From Telmatactis stephensoni (Eukaryota > Cnidaria > Anthozoa > Actiniaria > Isophelliidae): a stretch of 64,000 nt of DNA. Positions 313 to 63,940 of the stretch are shown in pieces. The notes beneath the pieces are model-generated. The model ran no database searches. It saw nothing but the letters and a program-made list of their open reading frames with translations, and was not told the origin of the DNA. The DNA lies in assembly GCA_029948255.1 (NCBI GenBank), contig JALIZF010001884.1, forward strand, positions 62,001 through 126,000, read 5' to 3'. Positions within the stretch are counted from its first letter, which is position 1. Each line of letters begins with the position of its first letter. The translations under genes were made by a program, and so were the position numbers.

Positions 313-2684
313 ATGAATTCCACAATACTCGCTTTAGTAGTGATGTGTAGCCTAGTGGTAAGTTATGCAGGGCTTTGAAACAATTCTTAAAAGCTAGTAA
401 TCATTTACTGGCTCAAACGGATAATTATCTGACAATCGCATACCAGTAGACCCGGCCAGTATGGTAACCGAACACGTCTCGATTCTGGTTCTGTAAAAAA
501 ATATGTTTGTTTTGTTGCAAAAGCTAGCTATATTACAGTATACGAATCGTTTCGCTAGAACTCTAAAGTTCTACTAAAAGTAAACATATTTGTCCCATTC
601 ATTAGTTTTCAGAGTAACTTGTAACTCATTCTTTCGTTTTGGCAACATTATGGCTACAGGATGTTCGAGTGAAAAGTAACCCTAGATTGGCCTAAACTGC
701 ATTATCAAACTTATTTGACCTACTCGCCGATACTAAAACAAAGAGAATCTGGAATATTGTGTTCGCTGGGGCAGACATTTGTGGGGAGAGGAATTTTCTG
801 GAGGGAGACTTGAGCAAAGTCTGCATTAATAAATCCGGATAAATTTGACAAAACGTCTTTTTGGTGTGGACGAGGGGTCTCAGAACCATAAAAAGATGTG
901 TTTCTTATTGAGTACGGACTTGTGAAGGCCGCAAGTAGATACTCATCGGACACATGACTCATATCACTCCAAGAGAGTTGTGTTACTAACCCATCATGTG
1001 TTTCTTGGTATTACCTTTGATTAGGTTACATTTGATCAAGCCGTGTTGAGACATGTCTGTGTCAAATTTCGGTTTTACTTATAGTTGGGGTCATATATAT
1101 ATATTTTTGGGCGGGGGGGGGGGGGGGGGACAGGCTGATGGCTCAATTTTGCCGTTTAATTTACACTTTGTGGACTGAAAGAGCTTTTTGATGTAATTCA
1201 TGAAATTAAAATTGATGATCCCATTATTTATCCAGGCATCGTCTACCAGTAGTGGTGTACTTGAGGTCATCTTTACACAATTCTTGAATCTAAAGGGAAA
1301 GGACTACCAAGGACAAGACTGCGATGCAGGGTTTGGGGGATCAAATCATTGTGACACGTATCTTCGTATTTGCGTGCGGTCTCCACCTCCTCCGTCATCA
1401 GGTTACTCGTGTTCTACAGCGACATCCAAGATCAAGAAAAACATGAACTCTTTTTCCATGTATGTTCGCGTGTTAGCAGCCTTCTCTGCTCTAAAGGTAA
1501 GACAAACAAAGTCTGTAATGTTGGTCTTCATTCTCATCCAGTCTACAATTTCGCAGGATACAATTTTCAAGAGCGCTTAACTGATTTTTATTAATGCATC
1601 AAGTAACCAATTAAGAACAAAGTATTACAGTACATCAAGTTATTTGCTACAGAATATCCCGCTCATCTACATACATATAAGATAAAAGTAAGATGTACCA
1701 TTTTACATACACCCTTATAAATTGTATTTGGAAACGTGAAGTACACCACCCAGCACACTAGGAGTTGTTATATGAACTTGAAATACAGGAGCCGATCCAG
1801 CTTTTTTAAAGAGGGGGTGCGTTTTTGATGGTAGCCAAAATGGTCTGTAGTCAGCTACGGGAATCCGATCACGTACTACCGATTAAAGATCAGCACAGGC
1901 TTCCCGGCCCCAAAACGGTTAAAGTAGCAGGCGCGCGCGTGGTGTGCTGGGTTTCCTGCCACAAATACAATTAACCACAGCCTTCCCGACTCAAAAACGA
2001 TTGATGAAAAACGTTTATATTTGAGGAAAACTTTCACCGTCATCCAAAAGGGGGTGCGTCCGCACCCAACGTACCTCCCCTGGATTCGCCCCTGAAATAA
2101 AGTTTTGAATATGTCCTTTGGAACCATAGGAACCATATGGTGCTCTTGTAAAAGCATGGGATAGCGACGATGTCTCTAGAGATGATCTCATTGACACATT
2201 TTCCTTCAATTTTACCAACAAACCTACCGTGAATGGAACAGTTCCCTCCTGGACAAGCCTCTCAGCCAAAGGAAAAAGACGTGCAGATAAATGTACTTTA
2301 CAATATAAGTATCGAGTATACTGCAATACCCATTATTACGGTACGGGTTGTGAGAACTATTGCAAAGACACTGACTCTGACGATCGTGGTCATTACTGGT
2401 GTGCAAACAACGGAAGCAAAATCTGTTTTGTCAACTGGTTCAGGCCTCAAACTAACTGTTTGAAATACTGTCGTCCACGTAATGACACAGGTGGCCATTA
2501 TAACTGTAATTCCATTGGTGACAAGATGTGTCATCCCAACTGGTATGGCCAAAACTGCACCGTGTTTATCAAGACTACACCCAAGAACGAAACGAAAGGT
2601 CAATTCATGTTTAGTAACGTAGCTGTTTTACGATACGCGCGCTCTGATTGGTTGCACGAAGGGCCTGTTTGTTTGAAGAAGTAA
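313..2684 (+). CDS. DSL-A: short Notch-ligand-like protein (MNNL + two DSL units), probably truncated
   Basis: Model: exon 1 313-357 (15-residue hydrophobic signal start MNSTILALVVMCSLV), exon 2 1236-1496, exon 3 2130-2684, all phase 0, giving 301 residues. Exon 2 plus the start of exon 3 resemble the MNNL domain of Delta/Jagged (SSGVLEVIFTQF, then CDTYLRICV, then PYGALVKAWDSDD). A YKYRVYC..HYYGTGC entry leads into two DSL units with the usual spacing C-x8-C-x3-C-x12-C-x7-C in the first. After NWYGQNC the frame reads into a decayed third unit in which both expected cysteines are lost, then stops. No stalk, membrane span or tail was found downstream. Exon sizes, phases and sequence match DSL-B closely, so this is a tandem paralogue. 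It could be a secreted short ligand or a pseudogene. The sequence near 2630-2740 carries the motif CTCTGATTGGYT found in several dispersed repeats here, so a repeat may have cut the gene. Confidence 0.7.
1786..2094. mobile_element. MITE-like element in DSL-A intron 2
   Basis: Imperfect terminal inverted repeats CAGGAGCCGATCCAG (left) and CTGGATTCGCCCCTG (right) bound about 309 bases just before exon 3. The same type of ends recurs at 3355-3513. The CAGGGG.GGATCCAG ends resemble those of animal hAT-type MITEs. No coding capacity. Confidence 0.5.
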
Positions 2685-3867: not shown

Positions 3868-4519
3868 GGGCCCAGTTGTTCGAAACCATTTAACGCTTAT
3901 AACCCAGGATAGTAAATCTAAAGAAAACTAGTGGTGTTAACCCAGGGTTAAATCTAAAGAAAACCATTGGTGTTAACCCAGGATTAAATCTAAAGAAAAC
4001 CATTGGTGTTAACCCAGGGTTAAATCTAAAGAAAACCATTGATGTTAACCCAGGGTTAAATCTAAAGAAAACCATTGATGTTAACCCAGGGTTAAATCTA
4101 AAGAAAACCATTGGTGTTAACCCTGGGTTAAATCTAAAGAAAACCATTGGTGTTAACCCAGGGTTAAATCTAAAGAAAACCATTGATGTTAACCCTGGGT
4201 TAAATCTAAAGAAAACCATTGGTGTTAACCCTGGGTTAAATCTAAAGAAAACCATTGGTGTTAACCCAGGGTTAAATCTAAAGAAAACCATTGGTGTTAA
4301 CCCTGGGTTAAATCTAAAGAAAACCATTGGTGTTAACCCTGGGTTAAATCTAAAGAAAACCATTGGTGTTAACCCTGGGTTAAATCTAAAGAAAACCATT
4401 GATGTTAACCCTGGGTTAAATCTAAAGAAAACCATTGATGTTAACCCTGGGTTAAATCTAAAGAAAACCATTGGTGTTAACCCTGGGTTAAACATCTAAC
4501 TTTCGAACAACCGCGGCCC
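3868..4519. repeat. 36-bp minisatellite inside a MITE
   Basis: Sixteen full copies and a partial one of a 36-base unit run from about 3899 to 4492. Each unit contains TTAACCC(A/T)GGGTTAA, a palindrome whose central base is the only variable point, followed by ATCTAAAGAAAACCATTGRTG. The array is bracketed by inverted ends GGGCCCAGTTGTTCGAA (3868) and TTCGAACAACCGCGGCCC (to 4519). Those ends match the short MITE at 43316-43453 (GGGCCCGGTTGTACGAA). So the minisatellite appears to be amplified interior of a MITE. The long minus-strand frame through it follows from a period divisible by three. Confidence 0.8.
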
Positions 4520-8309: not shown

Positions 8310-11300
8310 ATGAATTCCACAGTTCTCGTTCTCGCAGTCTTGTGTAGCGTTGTGGTAAGTTATCATTTATGGTTGTAATGTTTGAAGCATTGTGTTCTAC
8401 AGCGCATTTGCTGTGGTTAAGTTCATTCATAGTTCTACACGTGGTTTTGAGTAACAGTCTGTTTCAGACAGCGGCATGGCGTGCCAAAAACAACAATCTC
8501 TTCGAACTGCAAGTAAACCGTTACAATAATGTTTCCAATATCGTTTCTCTAGTGAATAAAATGCACTGGAAAAAAGGATACTTAATTTGCTTTGCAATAA
8601 CATGTTTGTAGCGCAGGGCTGTTGATACATACTGATTGCTCAACTGGATGATTTGACTTATTTTAGTACTATATGTAAAGTGATTGTCACTCTCAAATTT
8701 GAGGCATCTCTCAGCGCTCAAACACTGAACAATTATGATTATATTCTATTTGAAGTCTAGTCGTGTTTCAGATATGTATTTGCGATCCTGCACAAACCAT
8801 AATTAATTATAAGCAAATTACAAATTCTCTGTTTATATTAGCATTAGTAATGTTTGATTTCAGCTTACATTTCTCCCGCGGGAGTGAGGGTTGGGTGAAC
8901 TTGATCGTATTTTAAAAATCTCAATATTTATATTCCATTTTTATGTTTTCAAGTTTTTTTATTTAATAATCTTTATTTGGTTGTTCAATTTTGTTAGAAT
9001 TATGTGTTAAAAATACAAATAAATTCCAGTGGCTCGAGCTCGTTTGCGGCATGATATATTAATTACAAATTTTCTGCACTTTCTTGAAAACATGTACTGG
9101 CATATTGATTTATTGTCTTCAGCAACAAGAAGAAAAAACGAAAAGAAAGAAAGAATGAAAGAACAAAAGAACGAAAAAAAGGAAGGAAAGAAGGGAGGAA
9201 GGAAGGGAAGAAGGAAGGAAGGAAGGAAGGAACGGAAAAGGAACAAACGAAGGAAGGAACGAAGGAATCGAAAGGAAGGGAGAAAGGAAGCAACGGAAAG
9301 AAAGTAAAGAAAGACATGTACTGAATTCATTAATTATAAGCAGCTTATTCATTTGATGCCTTTTATCCTGATAATTTCATGATGCCGCAATAAGATTTGC
9401 TCTGAAAGGAGTTTGTACCCCAGCTTCGTCACTCTGTTTCTTGGAAGTGGTTCCACCTGATCAAATGTCAGTACCGTACAAGAACGAACAGATCCTGCTT
9501 CCTGTTGCTGTACGAATTGTGAAATATATAGAACATCACGCCTAAAATGAAATGATAGTATAAATGATGTAAAATTTCTGAATAAATTTGTTTTAAACCA
9601 CGTTTTCGATCTATTGATCATCATCAGGTATGCTCTGGTTGGTTTGATTTATCTTGAATTTATACTATGAAATACCCCTGGAGAACAGTTTAAGATGGAA
9701 TGTTTGAACTTGTTTATTCACTATGAGGTAGATCTAAATGTGCTTATAAATAAGGCTTCCAAAATGCGTCTAATTCCCCACGGATGAGATATTTTAATAA
9801 TGATGTTCCAGGTGAGGGTGTGAGAAGGGTTATCTCTCAGGTGTGTGGCGGACTCTGATTGGCTTGTTGTCTCCTGTTCTTTCTGGCGTAGAGTAACAGC
9901 AAGGAACTTTACTCCATCTTAAACTGTTCCTATAGGGAGATTTCATAGTATAAATTCAAGATAAATAAAACCAACCAGCATACCTGATGATCATCAATAG
10001 ATCGATCGAAAACGTTTGATTAAAACAATTTTATTCATTTTATTTATAGCACTGTATATACCTATTTGCACAAATATGACCCCTCAAAACATAGAAGCTG
10101 AGACCGAAATGAACATTGGGAAATCTGTTGATTAGTTGATTTTAAAGAAGCGTGTGGCTTGAAACCGTTTGCACCGTAAATATATTTAACTCACATTTTT
10201 TGTGCATTGTTGTGTACACAGTTTTCACATACTGTCCGACCCATTTATCGTTTTCAAATTAAACCAAGAGACCTAATAATAAGAGAGCGAAACTCAGTAT
10301 TGATGTCTGTGCGATGTTAAACGGTCCCGTCCGTGCGCACATCAAAAATCAAATTACTTAAAATAGCCTGGCTAGTCGCCGTAAACATCGCATAGACATC
10401 AATACGTCCGAGCTTCGCTCTCTTAGTATTATGGTCTCTTGATTAAGCACAAATCAAAGGAAAATAGAAAGAATCGAAGCAGCCTATCCGAGCCTTTTTA
10501 TCATGATGCCGCAATAGGTTTGTTCCTCTTTTTCTTCCTTTGTTGTGATCTCATGTCAGTACATAAACCGTCTTAATAGAAGGAGAAAACGTACCCTCGT
10601 CCTACGTACCTACGTGCTGAAACTGAACGAAAACCTATAGAAAACCTACAACAGAGAAGTTTAAATGTAGTTTTTTCCCCAGTGTTACAGCAGATTTTAA
10701 TAGGAATTTATAATATTTTTGCCGATAGTTTCGAATGTATCCCTCCATTTGATTCTCGTTGTATTTGTTGCTCTCAGCTTTCAATGCTTTCTACAGTATC
10801 GTTTTTGAATTACTATCCTATAGTTCTAATTTTAGTATCATAATTGATGTTATTCGATATTTCTGAAATCATTATTGCATTTATATACAGTCAATTGCAT
10901 AGTCTCCACATATCAACATGCATATACAAATATATAATGAATGCTGTTGCATGAAATATTTAAAGGACGTTAACTTGTAATTGGTGGCCGGTTTCTAAAG
11001 TAATGTGGGATTTTTAAATGCTTGCACTGTAGTCACTCCATTGTTCACAGAACTTTGAAATTCTTATTCCGAAAATAGATTCAACAATTCAAAAATATTT
11101 GTTCTTAAATTGGCATGTTCGGCTACTGCTGAGGTCTGGGGGTGGTCCAGGAATACGTCTCGTATTCTTTAACTCTCTCTTGCACTGGAAATTTTTGCTC
11201 ATTTCCTCTGATAGGAAATATCTAGAAAATATCTAGGAAATTACATTTTCCTATTATAGGAACTGGACAAAATGTAGGAAAATACATTTTCCTAGATATT

Positions 11301-14300
11301 TCCTAGATATTTCCTATCATAGGAAAATGAGAAATATCTAGGAAAATGCAATTTTCTATGATAGGAAGTATCTAGGACATATGTAGGAACTAATGTATTT
11401 TCCTAAATTTTGTCCGTGCTTATCATGGGAAAATGAAATTTTCTAGATATTTCTTAGATATTTCCTATCATAGGGAATGAACAAAAATTTCCAGTGTTGC
11501 AGTGGTCTTCCTGTCTCCTTGTCACAAAAGAACAAACTAAGAGTTTACCGTCAATTTAAGACAAACTATACCTTTGAAAGCTTCCTAAGTCACGTCACCA
11601 ACATCAAACGTAGAGTGGTACTCACCAAATTAAGAATTAGTAATCATAGACTAGAAGTAGAGATTGGGTGATATAGAAAACCCTACTTGACTTATGAACA
11701 AAGGATTTCTCCAGTAACACTAATATAGATCAAACCGCCAATGGCGAAGTAACTCGTGGATTGACCGAGATGACCACAGGAAGCCCAAACACAATTTTTT
11801 AAGTAAAATAACGAGTTTTTATTTGAAGACAAAAATCCAAATCAATAAATCAATAATTTCTTTAGCGAAGAAAGAGTCATTAGCTATAAAAGAAAAAAAA
11901 TCTGTCAAAAAAAAAGGGGAAAAAAAACTCCCCGCAAGTCCGGGATTTGAACCCGGACCTTACGATTGTAAAGCCAAGAGCATATCCACTGAACCATCCA
12001 GAAGTTGTATGATATCATCTGGTGAATTTTGTATATTTATTGTCAGAGTGTGGTTATAAAACAAGTGCAAAAATGCTTCTCTCTCTGTGCTCTGTAGCAA
12101 AATGTCGCTATAAAGATAAAAGAAATTACTTTACAAAACACTAAGCCAATAAACTAACTCAATACGCCTTTTTGTTGCTGTTTTCGGCTAGCGGACTCGA
12201 AGCCTTCACGGCGGCGACCGACGACTGCTTTCAAAATGTTTTCGTTTGTTTAACTTATCTACTTTGACTCTTGTGATAATAGAGTACGAACACTAAAAGC
12301 TTGGATTACTTTGATGTTGCACTTGAAGAGATTTTTGTCGCTTGATAGCGATGTACAAAGTCTGGCTATCGACTGCAGTGCGATATTCTATTGCGTAATT
12401 AAGTCATGTCTAAACTTGCTTCGGTACTTCGATGGTTTTACCCCTGAAATAGCTTGTACTAATACTAGGAATTTAATGATCTAAAAAGCTTCTTCTTTAA
12501 ACAACGTCTGTATATATTTTTCGTGTGTATTGAACATGTCCACTGGGAGTGTTTGTAGTTCTTAACCGTAAATATAAATTTTGTCTATAGTCTGATTTCT
12601 ACATAAATCGTGAAAAGCAAATATCGTTGATCTGTGAATAGTTCGGGAGTCCTTCGGGAGTCCCGGAATAAAAATCATATTTCCTTTAATCTCGTACCCA
12701 GAGCCCACATTACTTTCGGCCTACGGTCAATTGCATCGAGCATGCGCAGTGCCATAGTGTTAACACATTTGCGAGTGAGTGACATAGGTTACTACTTTAT
12801 GTATGGCACCATTCTAGTCAGACAATAGATAGATTGAATAGTGTCATTTCATGTTGTCATACACGAAGTAGTAAGCTGACTCATTTGCATATTTTGACCC
12901 CTCACTATAACTCGTGGATTTGCAATCCACGAGTTAAAAATGAAAAACATTTTTTGATTACGTGCCCCTCATATAATGAGAATAATTAACAGAATTAATT
13001 GAAAAAAAATCAGGTATTGATATCAATAATATGAACACTGACGACCGATTCATGTATTTAATCAATCCTAGATCAGTGTTTGTACAGAAAGCTGTGTCAG
13101 CACACATCTTAAGTGTCTGCTGACACGAGATACCAATCTAAAATGTAAGGAAAAGTCCTGAAATTGAAAAAATTGTTTGGGACAACACCCATGTACTACA
13201 TTCAAGTACCAAGTGCCAAATAATCGTTGTTGTTGTTGTTGTTGTTGTTGTAGCTTCGTAGTGTGGTATCTGACTTGAAGACATCACACTGAAAGCAAAG
13301 TGTAAATACGTTTCTATAGATAAAATATACACTGAGATTTGATTTTTAACGTTACAGTTTGTGTTCAATTACCATGGTAACGTAAATAAATTTATACCGT
13401 ATAAGATAAAAACATAATTAAATAAGCGCCCCCTTAATTTCAATAAGCCCCCCTCTTGACTCAAAAATTAAAATAAGAGCATATACGGTATTCCTGATAT
13501 TTCAGTCAGTATTTCAAGGTGGGAAAACCTACATAGCACTCAGTTGGTGTAATGTATTCAAAAAATCTATTGTGTTCTATTGTCTTTCGTTCTATTGTTT
13601 TATGTGTTTTGTATTATATTTTTATGAATATATTACATCAACTGCGTGCTACGTAGGTTCTCCCATTTCAAGGTACTTGTATGTATATATTCAGATGCAT
13701 TTGATGTTAATCTTAACACATGGGTTTGGAACTCATTTACATCAGTGTTGGTCGGAATCCAATCGTATGCACGTGACCACAAGACAAACATCTAATTTGT
13801 GTATCAAGTCATAAATTATTAATGAGTTTGAGAAAGACAGTTTTTCATGCACTCAGTCCATACTGATCTCACAAAATATCAACACTATCATAAATTTCCC
13901 CTGAATAAAATTGCGGAGATTTTCATTCGACGTAGGCACGCAGAATTTGATGGAATGATGATCAAATTGAAACTGCTTATTTTTGTTATCAGGCATCGTC
14001 CAACAGCAGTGGTGTATTTGAAGTCACCTTTAAACACTTCTCTAACGATGATGGCAAGGATTCAGATGGTTTAACCTGTGACCGGTTTTCTATTTGGTAT
14101 GACTGTGATACGTACCTTATAATTTGTGTAGCGTCACCATCCCCTATATCGGCAAGCTGTCCAAACAAGATAAACACCGGTACCAAGGATGACACCAACT
14201 CTTTTTCGTTGTCTGGCATTTCTACTTCATTAAAGTTCTCTGTTCTAAAGGTAAGGCCTCCTCTTTTTAGAAATGAACTGGTTGGCTTGAACATTAAGAA

Positions 14301-17300
14301 ATATAGTAGTTCGTGTGGCCCTGAGAAAACAAAAGAGTGGTTTAACCATAAAGGCAATGGTGAAAAAGAATCGGAAATACTTGAAGCTACCATTAAAAGT
14401 ATACCAATAAATACTTCTACCAATTTCAATTGTCATACACAGAAACCATGAATAATTAGTTGTTATAAAAGGTTTTCTTCAACCCACCGAGACGCCGAGT
14501 CGACCCTTGTTTTAGCATGATAAAGTGATAAAGTTTTAATTTTTCGGTATTCACTTTATTCTAGAAACCGTATGGTGCTTTTGTGGAAGCATGGGATGCG
14601 GATGACGCCACTAAAGATGATCTCATAGACAAATTTTCCTTCGATTTTACCAACAAACCTGCTGTCAATGGAACCATTCCATCCTGGACAAAGACCTATG
14701 CCAAAGGAAAAAGAACCTCATATAAGCCATGTATCCTACAATATAAGTATCGAATATACTGTAATACCCATTATTACGGTACGGATTGTGGGAAATACTG
14801 CAAGTACACTGATTCTGACAACGGTGGTCATTACAGATGTGCAAATAGTGGAAACAAAATTTGTCTTACAAACTGGTTCAGACCTCATACTAATTGTATG
14901 AAATACTGTCGTCCACGTAATGACACAGATGGCCATTATAACTGTAATTCCATTGGTGACAAGATGTGTCATCCCAACTGGTATGGTAACAACTGTACCA
15001 AGTTGTGTGTGCCTCACGATGACGACGTAAACGGTCACTACACGTGTAACTCAAGTGGAGACGCAGTTTGCCGTGTTGGCTGGTATGGCAAAGGATGTTT
15101 TCGTTTTTGTCTAAGTCAAAATAGCGACAAATTGGGACATTATACATGTGATTCCAATGGGACGAAAGTCTGTAATGTTAGCTGGTACGGTATAAACTGT
15201 ACTGTATATTGTAAGCCGCGTAACGATAGCAAAGGACATTATACATGTAATAACTCAACAGGAGAAAAGATCTGTAGGACAGGGTGGTTTGGAACTCAAA
15301 GTGGATGCAACTGTACACCAAAGAATGATTCTCTTTTTGGACACTATATATGTGATGCAATAACTGGCAATAAGATATGTCTTGCATTATGGTATGGCCC
15401 GTCTTGTAAGGTTTACTGCAATGAAAACAATGGAAACTACACATGTAATACTACAACTGGTGAAAAAATATGTAACGCTCATTGGTATGGTAGATTGTGT
15501 GACCATTATTGTAATCCGCAAGCAGACGTCTCGGAACATTACAGTTGCGATCCCATAACTGGAGAAAAAGTCTGTCTAGCTAGCTGGTATGGTTCTTCTT
15601 GTTCAGTATTTTGCAATGCAAACTTAGGTAACTACACTTGTGACAATTCAACAGGAGAGAAAATATGTCACTCTGATTGGTTTGGTCAATTGTGTGATAT
15701 TTACTGTAGACCTCGTGACGATGAAAAAGGACATTACAAATGTAACGCTAGTACCGGTGCTAAAATGTGTCTAACGAACTGGTATGGTAAAAATTGTGTT
15801 GTTTACTGCAAAACTCAAAAAGGCTTAAAAGGGAACTACTATTGCGATCCATCCACAGGATCCAAAGTATGTTATCCCAATTGGTATGGCCAGAACTGTA
15901 CTTTGCTCTGTCAACCACAGAATGGAGTGGAAGGACATTACAACTGCAGCGGAGAAGGGGCCAAAGTTTGTCATCCTAGCTGGTACGGTCAGAATTGTAC
16001 TGTTAATTGTGAACCCAAGAATGGACAGGAAGGACATTACAATTGCAGTGATGAAGGGGCAAATGTTTGTCATCGTAACTGGTACGGACAGAACTGCACT
16101 GTAAATTGTGAACCCAAGAATGGACTGAGAGGACATTACAACTGCAGTGCCGAAGGGGCTAAAGTCTGTTATCCTAACTGGTACGGACAGAACTGCACTG
16201 TTAATTGTGAACCCAAGAATGGACTGGGAGGACATTACAACTGCAGTGGAGAAGGGGCCAAAGTCTGTTATCCTAACTGGTACGGTCAAAATTGTACTGT
16301 TAATTGTGAACCCAAGGATGGTAAAGAAGGACATTACAATTGCAGTGATGGAGGAACTAAAGTCTGTCATCCAAACTGGTATGGCCAAAATTGTACTGTG
16401 CTCTGTCAACCAAAGAATGGAGTGGAAGGACATTACAATTGCAGTGGTGAAGGAGCTAAAATCTGTTATCCTAACTGGTACGGTCAGAACTGCACTGTTA
16501 ATTGTGAACCCAAGGATGGTAAAGAAGGACATTACAATTGTAGTGATGAAGGAGCTAAAGTTTGTCATCCTAACTGGTACGGTCAGAACTGCACTGTTAA
16601 TTGTGAACCCAAGGATGGTAAAGAAGGACATTACAATTGCAGTGATGGAGGAACTAAAGTCTGTCATCCAAACTGGTATGGCCCAAATTGTACTGTATTT
16701 TGTCAACCGAAGAATGGTGTGGAGGGTCATTATAACTGTAGTGGAAAAGGGGTCAAAGTTTGTCGTTCAAACTGGTACGGTGAGAATTGTACTGTGAACT
16801 GTTCTCCCAGCGATGCAGTTGAGGGACATTACAATTGCAGTGATGAAGGAGCTAAAGTTTGTCATCCTAACTGGTACGGACGGAATTGCACTGCTAATTG
16901 TGACCCCAAGAATGGACTGGGAGGACATTACAATTGCAGTGGTGAAGGAGCTAAAATCTGTTATCCTAACTGGTATGGTCGAAACTGTACTGTGAACTGT
17001 ACACCCAAGTTTGGAGTAGACGGGCATTACAACTGTAGTGGTAAGGGGATTAAAGTGTGTTATCCTAACTGGTATGGCCAAAATTGTACTGTGCTCTGTC
17101 AACCAAAGAATGGAGTGGAAGGGCATTACAGCTGTAGTGATGAAGGGGCCAAAGTTTGCTATCCAAACTGGTACGGTCGGAATTGTACTGTTCATTGTGA
17201 ACCGAAGAATGGTGTGGAGGGTCATTATAACTGTAGTGGAGAAGGGGTCAAAGTTTGTCATTCAAACTGGTACGGTGAGAATTGTACTGTGAACTGTTCT

Positions 17301-20300
17301 CCTAGCGATGCAGTTGAGGGACATTACAATTGCAGTGATGAAGGAGCTAAAGTTTGTCATCCTAACTGGTACGGACGGAATTGCACTGCTAATTGTGACC
17401 CCAAGAATGGACTGGGAGGACATTACAATTGCAGTGGTGAAGGAGCTAAAATCTGTTATCCTAACTGGTATGGTCGAAACTGTACTGTGAACTGTACACC
17501 CAAGTTTGGAGTAGACGGGCATTACAACTGTAGTGGTAAGGGGATTAAAGTGTGTTATCCTAACTGGTATGGCCAAAATTGTACTGTGCTCTGTCAACCA
17601 AAGAATGGAGTGGAAGGACATTACAGCTGTAGTGATGAAGGGGCCAAAGTTTGCTATCCAAACTGGTACGGTCAGAATTGTACTGTTCATTGTGAACCGA
17701 AGAATGGTGTGGAGGGTCATTATAACTGTAGTGGAGAAGGGGTCAAAGTTTGTCATTCAAACTGGTACGGTGAGAATTGTACTGTGAACTGTTCTCCCAG
17801 CGATGCAGTTGAGGGACACTACAATTGCAGTGATGAAGGAGCTAAAGTTTGTCATCCTAATTGGTACGGACGGAACTGCACTGCTAATTGTGAACCAAAG
17901 AATGGACTGGGAGGACATTACAATTGCAATGGTGAAGGAGCTAAAATCTGTTATCCTAACTGGTACGGTCAGAATTGTACTGTTAATTGTGAACCCAAGG
18001 ATGGTAAAGAAGGACATTACAATTGCAGTGATGGAGGAACTAAAGTCTGTCATCCTAACTGGTACGGACGGAACTGCACTGCTAATTGTGAACCCAAGAA
18101 TGGAGTAGAAGGACATTACAATTGCAGTGGTGAAGGAGCTAAAATCTGTTATCCTAACTGGTACGGTCAGAACTGCACTGTTAATTGTGAACCCAAGGAT
18201 GGTAAAGAAGGACATTACAATTGTAGTGATGAAGGAGCCAAAGTTTGTCATTCTAACTGGTACGGACAGAACTGCACTGCTAATTGTGACCCCAAGAATG
18301 GACTGGGAGGACATTACAATTGCAGTGGTGAAGGAGCTAAAGTTTGTCATCCTAACTGGTACGGTCAGAACTGCACTGTTAATTGTGAACCCAAGGATGG
18401 TAAAGAAGGACATTACAATTGTAGTGATGGAGGAACTAAAGTCTGTCATCCAAACTGGTATAGCCCAAATTGTACTGTATTTTGTCAATCGAAGAATGGT
18501 GTGGAGGGACATTATAACTGCAGCGGCGAAGGGGCTAAAGTCTGTCATCCAAACTGGTATGGTCGAAACTGTACTGTGAACTGTACACCCAAGTTTGGAG
18601 TAGACGGGCATTACAACTGTAGTGGTAAGGGGATTAAAGTGTGTTATCTTAGCTGGTATGGCCAAAATTGTACTGTGCTCTGTCAACCAAAGAATGGAGT
18701 GGAAGGACATTACAGCTGTAGTGATGAAGGGGCCAAAGTTTGCTATCCAAACTGGTACGGTCAGAATTGTACTGTTCATTGTGAACCGAAGAATGGTGTG
18801 GAGGGTCATTATAACTGTAGTGGAGAAGGGGTCAAAGTTTGTCATTCAAACTGGTACGGTGAGAATTGTACTGTGAACTGTTCTCCTAGCGATGCAGTTG
18901 AGGGACATTACAATTGCAGTGATGAAGGAGCTAAAGTTTGTCATCCTAACTGGTACGGACGGAATTGCACTGCTAATTGTGACCCCAAGAATGGACTGGG
19001 AGGACATTACAATTGCAGTGGTGAAGGAGCTAAAATCTGTTATCCTAACTGGTATGGTCGAAACTGTACTGTGAACTGTACACCCAAGTTTGGAGTAGAC
19101 GGGCATTACAACTGTAGTGGTAAGGGGATTAAAGTGTGTTATCCTAACTGGTATGGCCAAAATTGTACTGTGCTCTGTCAACCAAAGAATGGAGTGGAAG
19201 GACATTACAGCTGTAGTGATGAAGGGGCCAAAGTTTGCTATCCAAACTGGTACGGTCAGAATTGTACTGTTCATTGTGAACCGAAGAATGGTGTGGAGGG
19301 TCATTATAACTGTAGTGGAGAAGGGGTCAAAGTTTGTCATTCAAACTGGTACGGTGAGAATTGTACTGTGAACTGTTCTCCCAGCGATGCAGTTGAGGGA
19401 CACTACAATTGCAGTGATGAAGGAGCTAAAGTTTGTCATCCTAATTGGTACGGACGGAACTGCACTGCTAATTGTGAACCAAAGAATGGACTGGGAGGAC
19501 ATTACAATTGCAATGGTGAAGGAGCTAAAATCTGTTATCCTAACTGGTACGGTCAGAATTGTACTGTTAATTGTGAACCCAAGGATGGTAAAGAAGGACA
19601 TTACAATTGCAGTGATGGAGGAACTAAAGTCTGTCATCCTAACTGGTACGGACGGAACTGCACTGCTAATTGTGAACCCAAGAATGGAGTAGAAGGACAT
19701 TACAATTGCAGTGGTGAAGGAGCTAAAATCTGTTATCCTAACTGGTACGGTCAGAACTGCACTGTTAATTGTGAACCCAAGGATGGTAAAGAAGGACATT
19801 ACAATTGTAGTGATGAAGGAGCCAAAGTTTGTCATTCTAACTGGTACGGACAGAACTGCACTGCTAATTGTGACCCCAAGAATGGACTGGGAGGACATTA
19901 CAATTGCAGTGGTGAAGGAGCTAAAGTTTGTCATCCTAACTGGTACGGTCAGAACTGCACTGTTAATTGTGAACCCAAGGATGGTAAAGAAGGACATTAC
20001 AATTGTAGTGATGGAGGAACTAAAGTCTGTCATCCAAACTGGTATAGCCCAAATTGTACTGTATTTTGTCAATCGAAGAATGGTGTGGAGGGACATTATA
20101 ACTGCAGCGGCGAAGGGGCTAAAGTCTGTCATCCAAACTGGTATGGTCGAAACTGTACTGTGAACTGTACACCCAAGTTTGGAGTAGACGGGCATTACAA
20201 CTGTAGTGGTAAGGGGATTAAAGTGTGTTATCTTAGCTGGTATGGCCAAAATTGTACTGTGCTCTGTCAACCAAAGAATGGAGTGGAAGGACATTACAGC

Positions 20301-23300
20301 TGTAGTGATGAAGGGGCCAAAGTTTGCTATCCAAACTGGTACGGTCAGAATTGTACTGTTCATTGTGAACCGAAGAATGGTGTGGAGGGTCATTATAACT
20401 GTAGTGGAGAAGGGGTCAAAGTTTGTCATTCAAACTGGTACGGTGAGAATTGTACTGTGAACTGTTCTCCCAGCGATGCAGTTGAGGGACACTACAATTG
20501 CAGTGATGAAGGAGCTAAAGTTTGTCATCCTAATTGGTACGGACGGAACTGCACTGCTAATTGTGAACCAAAGAATGGACTGGGAGGACATTACAATTGC
20601 AATGGTGAAGGAGCTAAAATCTGTTATCCTAACTGGTACGGTCAGAATTGTACTGTTAATTGTGAACCCAAGGATGGTAAAGAAGGACATTACAATTGCA
20701 GTGATGGAGGAACTAAAGTCTGTCATCCTAACTGGTACGAACGGAACTGCACTGCTAATTGTGAACCCAAGAATGGAGTAGAAGGACATTACAATTGCAG
20801 TGGTGAAGGAGCTAAAATCTGTTATCCTAACTGGTACGGTCAGAACTGCACTGTTAATTGTGAACCCAAGGATGGTAAAGAAGGACATTACAATTGTAGT
20901 GATGAAGGAGCCAAAGTTTGTCATTCTAACTGGTACGGACAGAACTGCACTGCTAATTGTGACCCCAAGAATGGACTGGGAGGACATTACAATTGCAGTG
21001 GTGAAGGAGCTAAAGTTTGTCATCCTAACTGGTACGGTCAGAACTGCACTGTTAATTGTGAACCCAAGGATGGTAAAGAAGGACATTACAATTGTAGTGA
21101 TGGAGGAACTAAAGTCTGTCATCCAAACTGGTATAGCCCAAATTGTACTGTATTTTGTCAATCGAAGAATGGTGTGGAGGGACATTATAACTGCAGCGGC
21201 GAAGGGGCTAAAGTCTGTCATCCAAACTGGTATGGTCGAAACTGTACTGTGAACTGTACACCCAAGTTTGGAGTAGACGGGCATTACAACTGTAGTGGTA
21301 AGGGGATTAAAGTGTGTTATCTTAGCTGGTATGGCCAAAATTGTACTGTGCTCTGTCAACCAAAGAATGGAGTGGAAGGACATTACAGCTGTAGTGATGA
21401 AGGGGCCAAAGTTTGCTATCCAAACTGGTACGGTCGGAATTGTACTGTTCATTGTGAACCGAAGAATGGTGTGGAGGGTCATTATAACTGTAGTGGAGAA
21501 GGGGTCAAAGTTTGTCGTTCAAACTGGTACGGTGAGAATTGTACTGTGAACTGTTCTCCCAGCGATGCAGTTGAGGGACATTACAATTGCAGTGATGAAG
21601 GAGCTAAAGTTTGTCATCCTAACTGGTACGGACGGAATTGCACTGCTAATTGTGACCCCAAGAATGGACTGGGAGGACATTACAATTGCAGTGGTGAAGG
21701 AGCTAAAATCTGTTATCCTAACTGGTATGGTCGAAACTGTACTGTGAACTGTACACCCAAGTTTGGAGTAGACGGGCATTACAACTGTAGTGGTAAGGGG
21801 ATTAAAGTGTGTTATCCTAACTGGTATGGCCAAAATTGTACTGTGCTCTGTCAACCAAAGAATGGAGTGGAAGGGCATTACAGCTGTAGTGATGAAGGGG
21901 CCAAAGTTTGCTATCCAAACTGGTACGGTCGGAATTGTACTGTTCATTGTGAACCGAAGAATGGTGTGGAGGGTCATTATAACTGTAGTGGAGAAGGGGT
22001 CAAAGTTTGTCATTCAAACTGGTACGGTGAGAATTGTACTGTGAACTGTTCTCCCAGCGATGAAGTTGAGGGACATTACAATTGCAGTGATGAAGGGGCT
22101 AAAGTTTGTCATCCTAACTGGTATGGACAGAACTGCACTGTTAATTGCGAACCCAAAAATGGACTGGGAGGACATTACAATTGCAGTGATGAAGGAGCCA
22201 AAATATGTCTTTCCAACTGGCATGGTCTTAACTGTAGTGTCTTCTGCCAGCCGAGGGCTGGATTCGATGGACACTACAATTGTAGTCGTGAAGGATCCAA
22301 AGTATGTCACACCTATTGGTATGGGAAGAATTGTATGACGTTTTGTAAAGAAATAGACGATGAGTCTGGTCATTACACTTGTAATAGCACGTCTGGTCAG
22401 AAAATGTGTCGCCTAGGATGGTATGGTGCAAACTGTACTTTATCGAAGAAAAGTTCCTCACTTACCAGTTTGCATTCAATGAAAACATCATCCGAGATGT
22501 TATCATTTGTTAATTCAATGGTTACAAAGTCTACATCGACATATTTTTCATTTTCCCCGCTGTTATCATCTACTGCTATCTTCTCGTTTTCCGCATCAAA
22601 GTCACATACGTCTGCTTTGTTCTCATTGCCTGGGATTTCCCCAACAGCAAAATATACGACCTCATCAAAAGAAGCTACAAGTTCCTTGAAAAGTTTTTCT
22701 TCCGCACAAGAAGCTCTATCTAGTTCAGCGAGTATTATTCAGACCTTGTCGTCGACCTCAAGCACTATAATTATTATTCAGCCACTTTCTTCCATGCATA
22801 ACATGTTTCCTTCGACAGTGGAAATGACCTTTAGTTCTTCGCCAGTTCTTTCGTCGCAGTTGTCATCCCTTGTAACATCACCAAGTTCTTCGAGCGTCAG
22901 TTTGTCTTCAATGGGCGTGGTATCTCTACCGTCTCCCCCCTTTAGTTCCAAGTCATTTATTTCTTCGGAGGTATCGCGAACCTTATTCTTATACCCGTCT
23001 AGCGTGATATCCCAGAGTTACGCGACAAGCGTTCATTCACGTTCGTCAGGTCTCAAGTCGTCGGCAAGTTCTTCAGAGATTACTCTTCCCTTGTCGTCAA
23101 AAAGGGAGACATCACCGAATTCATCAGTCGTTGTACCGTCCACTTCATCAGTTCATAAAATCTTTCCAAGTTCCCTTGGCTCTTGTCTTCCAAGTTCCTC
23201 TGGTTCTTATCGGCCTTTAACTTTACCGTTCAGTGTCACTCCTTCTCTTACAATTGCTCACTCACCTGTAAACACTTTACAAGTCTCCCCTGTATTTTCC

Positions 23301-25106
23301 AGTCAAGCATCTCCAACTATTTCTGTGGTTATACCATATAATAGCACTGCGCCTCCAAAAGTGGTCACTCCCAGCTGGGCCACAAACGCGAAAACGTGGC
23401 TTAAGGAGACATGGAAAACACCTGGAGGGAAGGCAGCCTTTGTCCTTATTCCCTTGTTTCTGCTTGTTCTTATTGTTGCGATTCTTCTAGTTCGACGAAA
23501 CAGAAGGTAAAAATCAGGCAAGTGCTTTAACTCCCGCCCCTCTTCTTTCCTAAATCGACTGATTTAGGTATCGATTATATGACGATTTTCAGCCCGCCTG
23601 GCCGGGCTGAATCTTTTTGGCGATTACATGACAAAACCAGCCCGGGCTAGGTTTTGTCACCTCTTCAAAGCGCCTGTTCAATACACTTTCCGCTGCCACA
23701 ATACAGCGTGGCTCAGGTCTTCAGCCCGGGCTGAAATGCTCAGTCGCGATTACATGAGAATTTTTTAGCCCGTCTCACCGGGCTGAACCTTCCAGCCCGG
23801 TTAGCTTGACCCGGGCTGGAAATGTCCTTCCGGGCTGAAACTCAGCACGGGATCAAAATCTCTTCATGTAATCGAAAACTTAACTTTATATACATTTGTT
23901 GAGGAGACCGGGCTGAAGTTTCAGCCCGCCTGACCGGGCTAAAAATCGTCATATAATCGGGCCCTTAGCTTGCATGCCTTGTGCTGCAGCCTACTTCATT
24001 TTGATCCCCATGGCACGGAAGAATGTTCACCTCAAACAGAGATTGAAATCGGAAAAAGATCAAGGCAAGCAAAATCGATTGGTCGATTGGGATTTTGCTA
24101 TTCCCTGTGATTTTCTCAAAAATGCATTTCTCCGTGGAATACAAACTCAAGAGTATGTTTTATTCTGAAAGGAGTATAATCTTGTATACTGCACTGTTTT
24201 TCTCTTTTACTTTATTTTTGTCAGAAAGAAAACAAAACCCCCAAAAGCAGTCGATGGAATCAATGGCTTTAGTACCGTGGACATGCCTGCTTGTCTTCTC
24301 CTAGATGCTACATACGTTGAAGAAATGGAAGATATGCCATCACAGCCCAAAAAACGGTACATCAGTACAACAATAATAACCATTACATTTGAACACAGTG
24401 ACAAAGCCTTTGAAATATTACCATTTTTTCGGGCCGGGTGATATTTCGGATGAATAAGTTGTGACCTTCCTCGATCTTGATAGAAACTGGATTGCTGGCA
24501 TTGTATGCAGCAGCAATTAAGTTTCTTAGATGTTGTACAAAGTCGAAGTCGCAATGGTTTTTATTGTGTGTATGTTTTAGGGCACAGCTACCAAAAGCAG
24601 ATTCAATCTTCAGTGCGAGTAACCCATTTTTTGACGATAAAACACGGTTTTTGAATCTTGGTGACGATTACGAACACGAAGACATTGAAACAGAAAAACC
24701 GAGGTAGGTGCTGTCAAGTTAAATTTATTAGTTTCTCCTTAACTAATTAAGGCTTTCGCCAATTACTGTAGGCCCTGTAGACGACTTTCCTCCAATGGCT
24801 CTATGCACCTTCATGCCTACCTGTCTTCTCTCTCCCTCGCTCACTCATTTCTCCTCCCTTTCCAACTTCCTCCATCCTTTAATTTCTTCCTTTCCACCTT
24901 ATACGCAATAATTTTAACGCCATGTATTTATTTCAGTAGTAACATTTATTCAAACTTTGTTGTCCAGAACTTCCAGTAAAAATGACCAGTTAGAAACAAA
25001 GACGCGATCCTTCAGTAACCCTTTTTATTCCGATGATGCCAAGTACTGCAAACTCAAGCCCGAGGACGAGACCAATGGAGGAAACGTAAATGAGTCGAAT
25101 GTTTGA
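8310..25106 (+). CDS. DSL-B: giant transmembrane protein with 77 tandem overlapping DSL units
   Basis: Hand-built model: exons 8310-8354, 13993-14250, 14565-23506, 24225-24356, 24581-24703, 24968-25106. Phases 0,0,2,2,2 agree at every junction and give 3212 residues. Residues 1-15 are a signal peptide core (MNSTVLVLAVLCSVV). An MNNL-like domain runs to about 150 (SGVFEVTFKHF; CDTYLIICV; PYGAFVEAWDADD), then QYKYRIYC..HYYGTDC opens the first DSL. The DSL array spans about 167-2725, a Ser/Thr-rich mucin-like stalk about 2726-3040, a membrane helix about 3058-3077 (AAFVLIPLFLLVLIVAILLV) and a 135-residue tail to 3212. Canonical Delta, Serrate/Jagged and LAG-2 ligands have one DSL domain and usually EGF repeats; here no EGF repeat is seen. 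By architecture it is a type I surface protein related to Notch ligands. Whether it binds Notch, another receptor or serves adhesion or mucin-like roles is unknown. If intron 3 is retained, translation ends RRNRR right after the membrane. Confidence 0.93.
9125..9305. repeat. GA-rich low-complexity tract
   Basis: Imperfect AAGG/AAAG tetramers over about 180 bases. Reading frames through it on both strands are compositional artefacts. Confidence 0.9.
9578..10038. mobile_element. Foldback element with about 120-bp arms
   Basis: Left arm 9578-9700 (with ATTGATCATCATCAGGTATG and TTTGATTTATCTTGAATTTA) is the inverse of 9910-10038 (CATACCTGATGATCATCAAT and TAAATTCAAGATAAATAAAA). The unpaired middle is about 210 bases and has no coding frame. 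Confidence 0.8.
10265..10441. mobile_element. MITE family with CAAGAGACC ends, copy 1
   Basis: 177 bases with ends CAAGAGACCTAATAATAAGA and TCTTAGTATTATGGTCTCTTG, and an inner inverted pair TATTGATGTCTGTGCGATGTT / AACATCGCATAGACATCAATA-like. A second copy is at 26090-26298. Confidence 0.8.
11183..11496. mobile_element. Foldback MITE built of TTTCCTAGATA repeats
   Basis: Ends CACTGGAAATTTTTGCTCATT and AATGAACAAAAATTTCCAGTG are inverted. The interior is made almost wholly of alternating TAGGAAATATCTAG and CTAGATATTTCCTA segments, so it can fold into several alternative hairpins. Confidence 0.8.
11935..12008 (-). repeat. tRNA-like relic (pseudo-tRNA or SINE head)
   Basis: On the minus strand a perfect T-arm GTCCGGGTTCAAATCCCGGAC is preceded by a D-arm-like TGGTTCAGTGGATATGCTC and followed by a run of T that could end pol III transcription. 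The acceptor arms do not pair and the anticodon stem is imperfect, so I do not call a functional tRNA. Confidence 0.5.
12540..12930. repeat. Dispersed repeat, copy 1
   Basis: It contains GGGAGTCCTTCGGGAGTCCC (about 12644-12664), GAGCATGCGCAGT and TTTTGACCCCTCACTATAAC followed by CTCGTGGATT. The same segments occur in inverted orientation at 56650-56890. The two copies are diverged and of unknown class. Confidence 0.7.
14760..22436 (+). repeat. Coding array of 77 DSL units (33-residue, 99-bp period)
   Basis: I counted 77 units from CNTHYYGTDC to GWYGANC. The common unit is NC-T-V-x-C-x11-C-x7-C-x7, with GHYNCS before the third cysteine and NWYGQ at the end. Spacing C-x3-C-x11-C-x7-C-x8-C equals cysteines 2 to 6 of a canonical DSL domain. 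The C-x8-C WYG segment that closes one unit (C5-C6) also opens the next (C1-C2), so neighbouring domains share a disulphide loop and the array is overlapping rather than beads with linkers. Units 1-11 and 75-77 are diverged. Units 12-74 are nearly uniform. Variants include a shortened C3-C4 loop in units 7 and 9, and C-x1-C in place of C-x3-C at unit 6. Almost every central unit has two N-glycosylation sequons, NCT and NCS. Confidence 0.95.
16767..22013 (+). repeat. Higher-order repeats of 495 bp (A) and 1089 bp (B) within the DSL array
   Basis: Fifty-three units fall into seven blocks in the order A A B A B B A: 16767-17261, 17262-17756, 17757-18845, 18846-19340, 19341-20429, 20430-21518, 21519-22013. 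A is five units and B is eleven; every block keeps the frame. Copies of a block differ by only a few substitutions, for example NWYGR versus NWYER in one B copy and HSNWYGE versus RSNWYGE in A. Such near identity points to recent unequal crossing-over or gene conversion. Copy number is therefore likely to vary between alleles and is vulnerable to assembly collapse or expansion. Confidence 0.92.
22437..23506 (+). other. DSL-B mucin-like stalk and membrane helix (end of exon 3)
   Basis: About 315 residues dominated by Ser and Thr with few charges follow the last DSL unit, consistent with an O-glycosylated stalk. Cysteine falls to near zero here, unlike the array. The helix AAFVLIPLFLLVLIVAILLV is followed by RRNRR, a stop-transfer signal. 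The exon ends ...CAGAAG with donor GTAAAA at 23507; the in-frame TAA stop is created by the donor itself. Confidence 0.85.
23560..23967. mobile_element. Foldback element with repeated CAGCCCGGGCTG motifs in DSL-B intron 3
   Basis: Ends ATTATATGACGATTTT and AAAATCGTCATATAAT are inverted and each is followed inward by an AGCCCGCCTG(G/A)CCGGGCT hairpin. The interior carries about ten further AGCCCG / CGGGCT half-sites. GC-rich pairing here could affect splicing of intron 3, which decides the cytoplasmic tail. Confidence 0.75.
24225..25106 (+). other. DSL-B cytoplasmic tail exons 4-6
   Basis: Three exons (24225-24356, 24581-24703, 24968-25106), each entered in phase 2, continue from the membrane helix for about 130 residues. 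Exon 5 contains SIFSASNPFFDD and exon 6 SFSNPFYSDD: two NPF tripeptides (residues about 3140 and 3184) in a repeated context. The tail is acidic and ends ESNV, matching the class I PDZ-ligand form S/T-x-hydrophobic. NPF is a known EH-domain-binding and endocytic signal, and Notch ligands need endocytosis for signalling. Role here is inferred. The exon 5/6 similarity suggests exon duplication. Confidence 0.82.
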
Positions 25107-32566: not shown

Positions 32567-35500
32567 CTATTTCTTCCGTTTCTTCTCTTTCTCAGAAGCC
32601 TTACTTTTGCTGGCTTCCTCGAGCTCATTTTGTCCATTTGTTGTTGTTCTTTGTAATTTCTTGGATTTAAAAATGATATCGATGTCATCTTCTGTCTTTG
32701 TCTTTGAACTGGTGTTTTCGGCTTTTAATCTGGATTTCTATAAAGCAACAAAATGGTAAGTAAGAATCACTGCAATAACAAGGTAAATCTATCATCAGCA
32801 CCACTAAGAAGCATCATTACCATCACCGTGACCACCACCTTCACAGGGAACATGTCACATGGACATTAAACCCACCGCACACGTTGAGAAACTGCGTGAG
32901 GAAACTGCCACGCGAGGCTCAGACGATTTCTCGCCGCAAACGTTGCATCTTTTGCTACGCGAGGCCAAAAATAGAGCAGGTAAATAGCACACGGTGAGAA
33001 AAGTGCCTCGCGTGGCAGTTCCCTCTCACAGCTTCTCAACGTGTGCGGTGGGCTTAAGGGACAACTATCCTACTGCCCTTTTAGAGAAGTTAACGTTCAA
33101 ACAGGGAGTTGAGCAGTAAACACGAGGGACTTGTCCACATTTCTTGCCTATGCAACATGTCTCCTAGTGTGTACCGAACTTTATAATCTTAATCATCATC
33201 ATCATTCATCATCATCATCAGTAGCAGCAGCAGCAAGGCAAACATTGTCACACAGGCAAACACAGCATCATCACTTCTTCAGTTGTCTACCACCCAATGA
33301 CATCCATACAAGTTCAGTCTTATTGCGTTTATCAATATGACCACCTTCGGTCCAAAAATAACTGGCCGTAATAATGGGTTGGTCGTATTAAATGGGCACA
33401 TTTTTAAAAGAGATTAAGTACAAACTCTAGTTGTCAGGTTAAAATGGTCTCCACTACCACTGGTGTGTCTGAGCTTTTTCCGTGTTACGTTTTGTTAATA
33501 ATTGCGAACCGAAGCAGCTCTGGCACCCAGGTAAAGTTCCATAAGTGGAAGAGAAAAACTTGTTTGTGCGTCAAAACATTTCCAAAAATGAACAAAATAT
33601 TTGTACTCTACCTTTTTAGCAACACTGCTTTTGTTATTATTCTCTTCGTCTGTTTGTTGAAATCCTAACACAGCCATCTCCGTTGCATACTTCTGGACAA
33701 CATCGCTCTTTTCCTTCTTTTTCTCCGCTCCTTTTGATTTTTTTGGTTCACTTTCTTGAAATATTTCTTCAAAATTCTGTCTTTTTCTACTTGTTTTTGC
33801 TTCAACTTCTTTCCAATCTTTAGAGCGCTTTTTAAATTTATCGACACCACAACTTTTCAGTACTTTGCCGCCATAAAAGTCCTTCGATAGCTTGTCTTCT
33901 TCGCTGGCCAATTCTTTTGCGATATCTTCTTTGTGGATTGTGTCTACTTCTCTCCAACATGTTTCCACAACATGACTCGCGCTTTTGTCGCAGGCTAGGT
34001 GTGGAAGTTCTCCCTGAAAATAAATGGATAACAACAGGTGAGATATGGTAACAACAACAACGGCCGCGGCGTCTTGGACATCATAAAATGACGAGAAGAA
34101 TCGATGAGTTGTAATTTCCGACTTGCAATCGTTGACACATAAAAGAGGTGTATGATAGATAGCAGTGAGCATGCGCTGTAGCGACGTCTCTACATTTTGA
34201 AGAAAAGGCAGTTGGTTAGTGTTTCATATAAGACCTCAACCAAACACTGTTGAGGACATTTTAAGGCGAATCTTCTATGGAACACCATAGCTCGGTGAGG
34301 CTAAGCCCATAATTATCTTACCTTGAGTACATCACATAACTGGTTTTTCTTTTCGTTTTTCACAGTTTTACTCTTAAACAAAGCTTCTACAGTTCTTGAC
34401 CCAATAAAATCTTTACAAACTCGTATCAGTTCTTCTTTACTCAAGTTTGCAATACTGTTGACAAACGCTTTAGGATTCTTGAAGTCCAGAATGGTTTTCA
34501 GCAAGACAGCACCGTGAAAGTTGATTCTTTTGAGAGCTGGAGGGCTTTTTTCAATCTAGAATTAAAAAAGAATATCACTGTTAGTGTTCTTGTAATATGT
34601 AACTCTGTACGTGGATAAAAACACTAGTTTGGTGGTTGTCAAGGCTTGAAAGTATTTACCACTTTGTAACCACGTACTCTCTTCTTTTACTCTTTATACA
34701 TATATATATTAATTTATCAATTTCTATAAAATAACTATGATAAAGTGCATGCTCTCATTGGCCAAAGGACGCATATACTACCAACTCTAAATCTGCAGAC
34801 AGCATGTGTGCACATGTTTTCTATTTCTTCAATCCCACATGTAATAATAACTGTAAGTATGTAACTTTTTATTGTAAAATGTGTGCAAATAAAGTCTAAT
34901 TGTGAATTCACAACAAAGTGTTATTCATACTTGATTATCTTCTTCTTTTTCTTTTTCTTTTTTCACGTCCTCTTTATTTCCTTCACCTCCAAAGAACACA
35001 TCATAAGTTGTCATGCAAAATATGAGAGTTGCACACTTCTTCTTCTCCTTCTTCCCAGCACAGTGAAAGGCCTCTAGAAGAACTTGTTGAAATTCTTGTT
35101 GCTTCACCTCTAGGCGTACACAAAGTTCTGCCATTCTTGCAACAACACCATCGTGGCCAGCTGAAAATATTTCTTCCATTTCAACCAGAAGTTCATCTAA
35201 CATTTGCTCTGCCTAGGGAAACAAACAAAAGATAGATACAAACAAAAGCTTTGTTCAATGACAGTGAGAATTTATCAGAGCTACTATATGATGTAACTAC
35301 AAGATAACAATATTTCTGTTTGCGTAATTATGTACTGTGACAGATAAGAGCCTAGACAGGGAATAGGGCAATACACTACCACGAATACAATACAATATTT
35401 ACACAGTCACACAAGGAAGGGCAGTTTTCACCACTAATTTTGCAAAACTCCGCCTACTATACTTGTATGACAGCTGTCTGGCAATGTGTTGGATTCATAG

Positions 35501-38543: not shown

Positions 38544-38792
38544 GCTGTAGCCCAGAAATTAGGTAAAAAGGGAGAAATAATTCCAGCTAAAAACACTCAT
38601 AGTTCGTCGGCCATTTTGGACCACGTGGTTACCGCGGGTAGCTGAATTACTTCATATATGGTACATCATGTGCACATTATAATGATCTTACAAATGGATT
38701 ACAAAAGAATATATCATATATGAAGGACTTAGCTTGTTGACCGTCGGCCAAAAGTAACGCGGGCTCTGGGTTAGATTTAAAGTTAGAGAAAA
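38544..38792. promoter_or_regulatory. Divergent NOP9/MRRF promoter
   Basis: Only 249 bases separate the two start codons, which point away from each other. The interval contains an E-box CACGTG (38622-38627) and a GGCCATTTTGG segment (38610-38620) resembling a YY1 site. No TATA box is evident in either direction. Head-to-head pairing of two translation-machinery genes fits a shared housekeeping promoter; that is inference. Confidence 0.65.

Positions 38793-57403: not shown

Positions 57404-63940
<6,537 letters not shown>

Follow-up and report, generated by a model that had tools for sequence, protein, structure and literature searches.

A sea anemone gene for a predicted surface protein with a C2 head on an array of 77 overlapping DSL units

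We analysed a 64,000-nucleotide (nt) stretch of the Telmatactis stephensoni genome (contig JALIZF010001884.1, positions 62,001 to 126,000; hereafter the window, with positions counted from its first letter), whose forward strand holds a gene for a giant protein with 77 matches to DSL, a domain regarded as a hallmark of Notch ligands. Our favoured reading, which we put at a probability of about 45%, is that this is a single-pass surface protein in which a C2 head is mounted on 77 overlapping DSL units, and that it would act as a calcium-dependent membrane-contact receptor in adhesion or uptake and not as a Notch ligand. The chief competitor of this reading is a pure spacer of the glycocalyx, and we give less weight to a function as Notch ligand, cis-inhibitor or decoy.

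The reading frame at 14565-23510 matched Pfam DSL (PF01414) in 77 stretches with a total of 1790.9 bits (cut-off 24.2). A DSL domain requires six Cys. The array holds 310 (77 x 4 + 2), with exactly four in each of the 77 units and two more in a closing loop; 65 units are 33 amino acids (aa) long, eight are 34, two are 35 and two are 31. With four Cys per unit, each DSL must therefore share its outer loops with its neighbours, and the loop in common reads C-x3-W-Y-G-x2-C. The available text of PMC3415683 describes consecutive pairing of the DSL Cys and a C1-C2 loop that can be superimposed on the C5-C6 loop. Here, what is the C5-C6 loop in one DSL serves the next as its C1-C2 loop, so the chain takes the form A-B-A-B-...-A, with 78 A and 77 B loops, and such an array is predicted to be a continuous rod.

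A preliminary description of this stretch had counted 77 DSL units, seen no EGF repeats and taken DSL to be amplified as a stand-alone building block. The count stands as a number of PF01414 matches, although each unit has four Cys, not six, and loops are shared; the stand-alone block is not supported, because adjacent DSLs share loops. An EGF repeat has six Cys, a pattern that the units fail, and the four Cys found in 77 of 77 units ruled out an EGF-repeat array of the Draper/MEGF10 or teneurin type. The claim of no EGF repeats therefore holds for the Cys pattern but not for Pfam, where EGF_TEN scored 265.5 bits over 14 stretches (cut-off 65; strongest stretch within the array), far below DSL. 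The EGF-like repeats that follow the DSL in Notch ligands are absent, the array leading into the stalk and then the membrane helix.

The four residues of the Notch-binding face (F199, R201, R203 and F207 in JAG1) occur together in none of the 77 units, and 61 units have none of them. Unit 1, next to the head, has one of the four, whereas units 2 and 10 have three. A survey of matched loops, from which position 207 of Delta and relatives was taken, found neither F nor L at position 207 in the first matched DSL of 10 out of 10 headed relatives. Judged from the sequence, the array is largely without Notch-contact residues and lacks the conserved binding face of a Notch ligand. Structure predictions for the window's array were based on six-unit pieces. 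The best AlphaFold model of six units (11-row alignment) reached a mean predicted local distance difference test (pLDDT) score of 77.5 with one repeating strand pattern, and the array of P0003, a relative from Exaiptasia diaphana, reached 92-97 (19-row alignment). In a Foldseek search with the best six-unit model, Notch-ligand structures ranked first.

The frame that carries the array is by far the longest of the window (stop to stop 14565-23510, forward strand, 2,981 aa). The spliced six-exon model (Table 1) has 9,639 nt and encodes 3,212 aa, with frames consistent across exons, a single, terminal stop, GT-AG borders at 5 of 5 introns and a 135-aa tail after the hydrophobic helix. The phase-consistent model and the Ser/Thr stalk, membrane helix and tail of the preliminary description were thus borne out, exons 1-2 and the tail being supported by an upstream paralogue and P0003, and the same layout of stalk, helix and tail recurring in P0003. 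A similar exon 1 peptide at the same donor recurs in the paralogue (313-357), and exons 1 and 2 of the two genes have identical splice positions. Because P0003 has all parts in one protein and the paralogue repeats exons 1-2, the 77-DSL gene is probably no annotation artefact. A chance open frame was ruled out by a ratio of non-synonymous to synonymous substitution (dN/dS) of 0.14 among units and by the existence of P0003, and two genes run together by the occurrence of head, array and tail in one annotated P0003 protein.

P0003 (LOC110249840, 754 aa, named 'Delta-like protein' in UniRef) shares with the giant protein a signal-peptide-like start, the C2 head, the loop-sharing DSL array, the Ser/Thr stalk, the membrane helix, a tail with two NPF motifs and YxKL, and an NESN-hydrophobic end, but its array has 6 units instead of 77. 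Identity is 49% in the head, 38% in the stalk and 60% in the tail, which aligns through the three small 3' exons; given these values, both ends appear constrained. By this alignment, array length is what differs between the two proteins. The layout of head, tandem loop-sharing DSLs without EGF, stalk and membrane helix is that of an anthozoan poly-DSL family, and the giant gene's head groups with those of anemone poly-DSL proteins: in a tree of 15 heads that we chose and cut ourselves (P0029 was left out, its DSL being unmatched), the giant gene, the paralogue, Actinia P0002 and Exaiptasia P0003 form a clade with support of 100/99, while deeper forks are weak. The annotated P0002 protein of Actinia tenebrosa has three MNNL-like heads alternating with DSLs; it may be a fusion of adjacent genes, which would hint at tandem gene copies at the locus in anemones. 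In the paralogue (313-2684, forward strand), exons 1-3 contain no array, stalk or membrane helix, and its dN/dS against the giant gene is 0.35 (242 codons), or 0.21 over the DSL part. It may encode a short secreted C2-DSL2 protein or else be a truncated copy.

The head stands directly before the DSLs, as the N-terminal MNNL (C2) domain does in Notch ligands. The spliced N-terminus scored 22.9 bits against Pfam MNNL (PF07657), barely above the cut-off of 22.5, and its first DSL 35.3 bits; a phmmer search of PDB sequences with head and DSL retrieved DLL4 (3.4e-13), Jagged-1 (5.7e-13) and Drosophila Delta (2e-12). The MNNL assignment of the preliminary description therefore passes the Pfam check, marginally, and DLL4 and JAG1 are found by phmmer as well. 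Asp is retained at two Jagged-type calcium-ligand positions (Asp54 and Asp112), and the head has a D-x-D...D-x-hydrophobic loop, a pattern that also arose in 174 of 2,600 shuffled heads.

We counted 152 N-x-S/T sequons in the array, of which 138 are N-C-S/T; 1,000 shuffles gave 28.7 +/- 4.7 (maximum 46). This is an approximately five-fold enrichment to about two sequons per unit, to be read with the reservation that homogenised units are not independent. Sequons are likewise enriched in the P0003 array (9, against 2.1 in shuffles with a maximum of 7), and an N-glycan coat of the array is predicted. The tails of both proteins have in common AVDGxNGFSxxDMPACLLLDAxYV, SNPFFDDKT, SNPFYxD, YxKL and a terminal NESN[V/L], motifs that point to endocytosis. 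Class I PDZ ligands end in S/T-x-hydrophobic; the giant protein ends in NESNV and P0003 in NESNL.

Under the receptor reading, the array would form a stiff rod, by our estimate ~150-230 nm long at an assumed 2-3 nm per unit, with N-glycans covering it at the sequons. At the tip of the rod, the head would, with Ca2+, bind to phospholipid of a facing membrane or particle, as Jagged C2 domains do, while the tail, through its NPF-acidic and YxxL motifs, would engage EH-domain proteins and clathrin adaptors and so lead to internalisation. The outcome could be adhesion, particle capture or engulfment. The array would then act as a length-tunable spacer, because P0003 and the giant protein have conserved heads and tails in common but arrays of 6 and 77 units.

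Several observations weigh against this reading. Asn beside a disulphide-bonded Cys may be poorly glycosylated. F or L is present at position 207 in 29 of 106 matched loops from 16 poly-DSL relatives, P0005 and P0012 have Y/R/R at the remaining Notch-face positions of their first DSL, and losing the mammalian Notch face is no proof of lost binding to a cnidarian Notch. The other four of the five AlphaFold models of the window's own units scored only 29-36, and the Foldseek matches in PDB have TM-scores of at most 0.31 to the query among the matches listed, so the likeness to Notch-ligand structures is local. P0003 and several other relatives have no Pfam MNNL match at E 0.01, their heads being assigned by alignment and fold. 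Finally, Asp residues alone do not prove Ca2+ or lipid binding by the head, and Delta ligands without Ca2+ sites bind liposomes, as described in the available text of PMC5538765.

The main rival sees the array as a carrier of N- and O-glycans, that is, a mucin-like, protective or anti-adhesive glycocalyx rod on which the head is a partnerless relic. The enrichment of sequons, the Ser/Thr stalk, the homogenised tandem units and the difference between 6 units in P0003 and 77 here would all suit such a spacer, but it leaves unexplained why head and tail are better conserved than the stalk and why Asp is kept at both calcium-ligand positions; we consider it unlikely, though worth serious attention. 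We regard as improbable a role in the Notch pathway, in which the protein would be a multivalent ligand, a cis-inhibitor or a decoy of the animal's own Notch receptor. Such a role would account for the order of MNNL and DSL, which is that of Delta and Jagged, for an NPF/YxxL tail suited to ligand endocytosis, for a C-terminus resembling the ATEV ends of many Delta proteins, and for the three face residues in units 2 and 10. It conflicts with the loss of the face from nearly all units, including all but one of its residues in the unit next to the head, with the residues at position 207 in the headed relatives, and with the lack of EGF1-3 after the DSLs, since EGF1-3, MNNL and DSL are listed as requirements for receptor binding in the available text of PMC4810162. 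The multivalent Notch ligand entertained in the preliminary description is accordingly disfavoured by the lost contact residues, whereas its account of an MNNL-headed, membrane-anchored, EGF-free DSL polymer is supported, as is its suggestion that the role could be a non-Notch one.

Units 1-11 and 77 are divergent and units 12-76 more alike, the latter 65 having 31 distinct DNA versions and 26 distinct protein versions. Among the distinct 33-aa units, mean pairwise identity is 78.9%, and the proportions of synonymous (pS) and non-synonymous (pN) differences are 0.56 and 0.13, giving the dN/dS of 0.14 from pairs that are not independent. Higher-order repeats of 5, 11 and 16 units occur within the array: 1,707 bp at 17180..18886 (forward strand) recur without mismatch 1,584 bp (16 units) downstream, and 695 bp are repeated exactly at offsets of 11 and 27 units. 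The 1,707-bp repeat represents either a recent internal duplication or an assembly matter, and because of such exact 1.7-kb repeats, 77 is an uncertain number that applies to this assembly. The window contains no N. We give little credence to the possibility that the gene is real but its length inflated or haplotype-specific, a shorter array having been multiplied by recent tandem duplication or assembly error. The exact repeats and the mere 31 versions in 65 units of 33 aa are what such inflation would produce, and a protein search with residues 1-600 of the 2,981-aa frame for relatives of 1,640-5,217 aa found none significant among 1,477 candidates. But the reading frame is intact through all units, the array ends are divergent, and the distinct units alone outnumber the DSL stretches of the scanned relatives (at most 15); moreover, inflation would touch the number 77 and not the kind of protein. 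The array also contains, on the minus strand (17757-21518), three open frames of 362 aa each, likely a by-product of the 11-unit (1,089-bp) higher-order repeat.

Two further protein searches, in which 40 of 2,517 and 12 of 1,000 candidates were accepted, yielded poly-DSL proteins from Actinia, Exaiptasia, Nematostella (up to 11 Pfam DSL stretches), Actinostola and Oculina (up to 15), two EukProt entries (14 and 10), ENA entries and a divergent form in Mnemiopsis; the database relatives have 5-15 stretches each. The Nematostella 'protein draper' (P0004) and Oculina P0042, with 11 and 15 stretches, resemble the giant protein in their hydrophobic helix and in a head-like N-terminus that can be aligned with the family, but belong to another branch of the head tree and lack an NPF motif of its kind. 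Mnemiopsis P0046 and the ENA entries P0047, P0049 and P0050 share the hydrophobic helix and have 6-10 Pfam DSL stretches; they differ in their divergent DSLs, in weak laminin-EGF matches (three of the four) and in many tyrosine motifs. The multi-DSL membrane proteins P0046-P0050 have 6-10 Y-[AST]-x-hydrophobic motifs each over the whole protein, visibly crowded in the tails, which we take to resemble immune tyrosine motifs. Delta, Serrate and Jagged are likewise type I membrane proteins with a C2 (MNNL) head directly followed by DSL, but have a single DSL, EGF repeats and an intact Notch-binding face. The 'Delta-like' receptor tyrosine kinase of Capsaspora has more than one DSL as well, but its two are accompanied by EGF repeats and a kinase, according to the available text of PMC4810162. 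Among annelid proteins with DSL and EGF domains, from Owenia fusiformis (P0014, P0051 and P0052), P0014 and P0051 have repeated DSL-like units among the EGFs, so that repeated DSLs extend beyond cnidarians, though with no EGF-free array.

The preliminary description knew of no protein of this kind, a statement overtaken by these relatives and by the cnidarian DSL-only genes, with 1-11 repeats and in one case an MNNL with 3 DSLs, that Gazave et al. noted in 2009 while suspecting misassembly (PMC2770060, available text). Like the giant gene, these cnidarian genes have several DSLs without EGF, one of them with MNNL; they differ in having at most 11 repeats, and the two-sentence report, as far as its available text goes, does not describe loop sharing, loss of the Notch face, calcium residues of the head, stalk, helix or tail. 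Our searches of the open-licence literature for EGF-free multi-DSL proteins found nothing beyond this report. As far as these searches go, the 77-unit, loop-sharing form without a Notch face is undescribed, the kind itself having been glimpsed earlier; because DSL-only genes were reported in 2009, the giant gene belongs, as an extreme case, to a kind that has hardly been described.

A wider suggestion, which we advance as speculative and somewhat doubtful, is that DSL is not solely a Notch-binding domain: cnidarians and ctenophores would polymerise it, here into a loop-shared, disulphide-pinned, open-ended rod of 77 periods that holds a calcium-dependent membrane-binding C2 head at a distance from the cell and feeds into an endocytic tail, and Notch-free use of C2-DSL in adhesion or engulfment could be as old as Notch ligands or older. 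Quite apart from this suggestion, a protein of 77 loop-sharing DSLs that lacks EGF repeats and the Notch face, and that has in P0003 a conserved counterpart from a laboratory anemone, would show that the DSL fold can serve as a structural polymer and that Pfam-based or automatic 'Delta-like' labels in cnidarians may mislead on function. It makes a testable family of a doubted 2009 footnote. It also bears on whether C2-DSL proteins first served adhesion, before there was Notch signalling, as PMC4810162 argues (available text).

Table 1. Features of the giant DSL gene and its upstream paralogue in the window
Feature	Positions	Strand	Content and basis
Exon 1	8310..8354	+	Hydrophobic signal-peptide-like N-terminus MNSTVLVLAVLCSVV, donor gtaagt; from the spliced model and the paralogue
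Exon 2	13993..14250	+	First part of MNNL/C2 head, Asp54 at Jagged-type calcium-ligand position
Exon 3, whole	14565..23506	+	Remaining head, DSL array, stalk, membrane helix
Exon 3, start	14565..14759	+	Rest of C2 head, Asp-rich loop VEAWDADDATKDDLID; aligned to DLL4/JAG1 structures
DSL array	14760..22436	+	Residues 167-2725, 77 four-Cys units and closing two-Cys loop
Array units 12-76	15870..22304	+	33-aa (99-bp) units
Ser/Thr-rich stalk	22437..23432	+	332 aa, 41% Ser+Thr
Transmembrane helix	23433..23492	+	AAFVLIPLFLLVLIVAILLV, then RRNRR; from the sequence, P0003 counterpart being predicted helix 608-633
Exon 4	24225..24356	+	Cytoplasmic tail, aligned with P0003
Exon 5	24581..24703	+	Tail, first conserved motif SNPFFDDKT
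Exon 6	24968..25106	+	Tail with SNPFYSDDA, YCKL, C-terminal NESNV, stop
Paralogue exon 1	313..357	+	MNSTILALVVMCSLV
Paralogue exon 2	1236..1496	+	MNNL 22.5 bits, at the cut-off
Paralogue exon 3	2130..2684	+	Rest of head, two DSLs (71.3 bits, 2 stretches), 38 array-unlike residues, stop

Elsewhere in the window, an Rfam scan gave nothing at gathering scores and ARAGORN found no tRNAs. A 36-bp tandem repeat at 3913-4492 (16 copies, 97% matches) is open on both strands and has no Pfam match above cut-off. The minus strand at 33495-38558 carries exons encoding a NOP9-like PUF-repeat protein (Pfam PUF_NOP9). On the forward strand, a lipid desaturase domain (PF10520, 182 bits) at 46989-47558 presumably belongs to a TMEM189/PEDS1-like protein, and 57272-62763 holds exons of a flavin adenine dinucleotide (FAD)-dependent oxidoreductase (DAO, 38.5 bits at 57272-57679 and below cut-off at 62410-62763), which we take to be perhaps a relative of sarcosine/dimethylglycine dehydrogenase.
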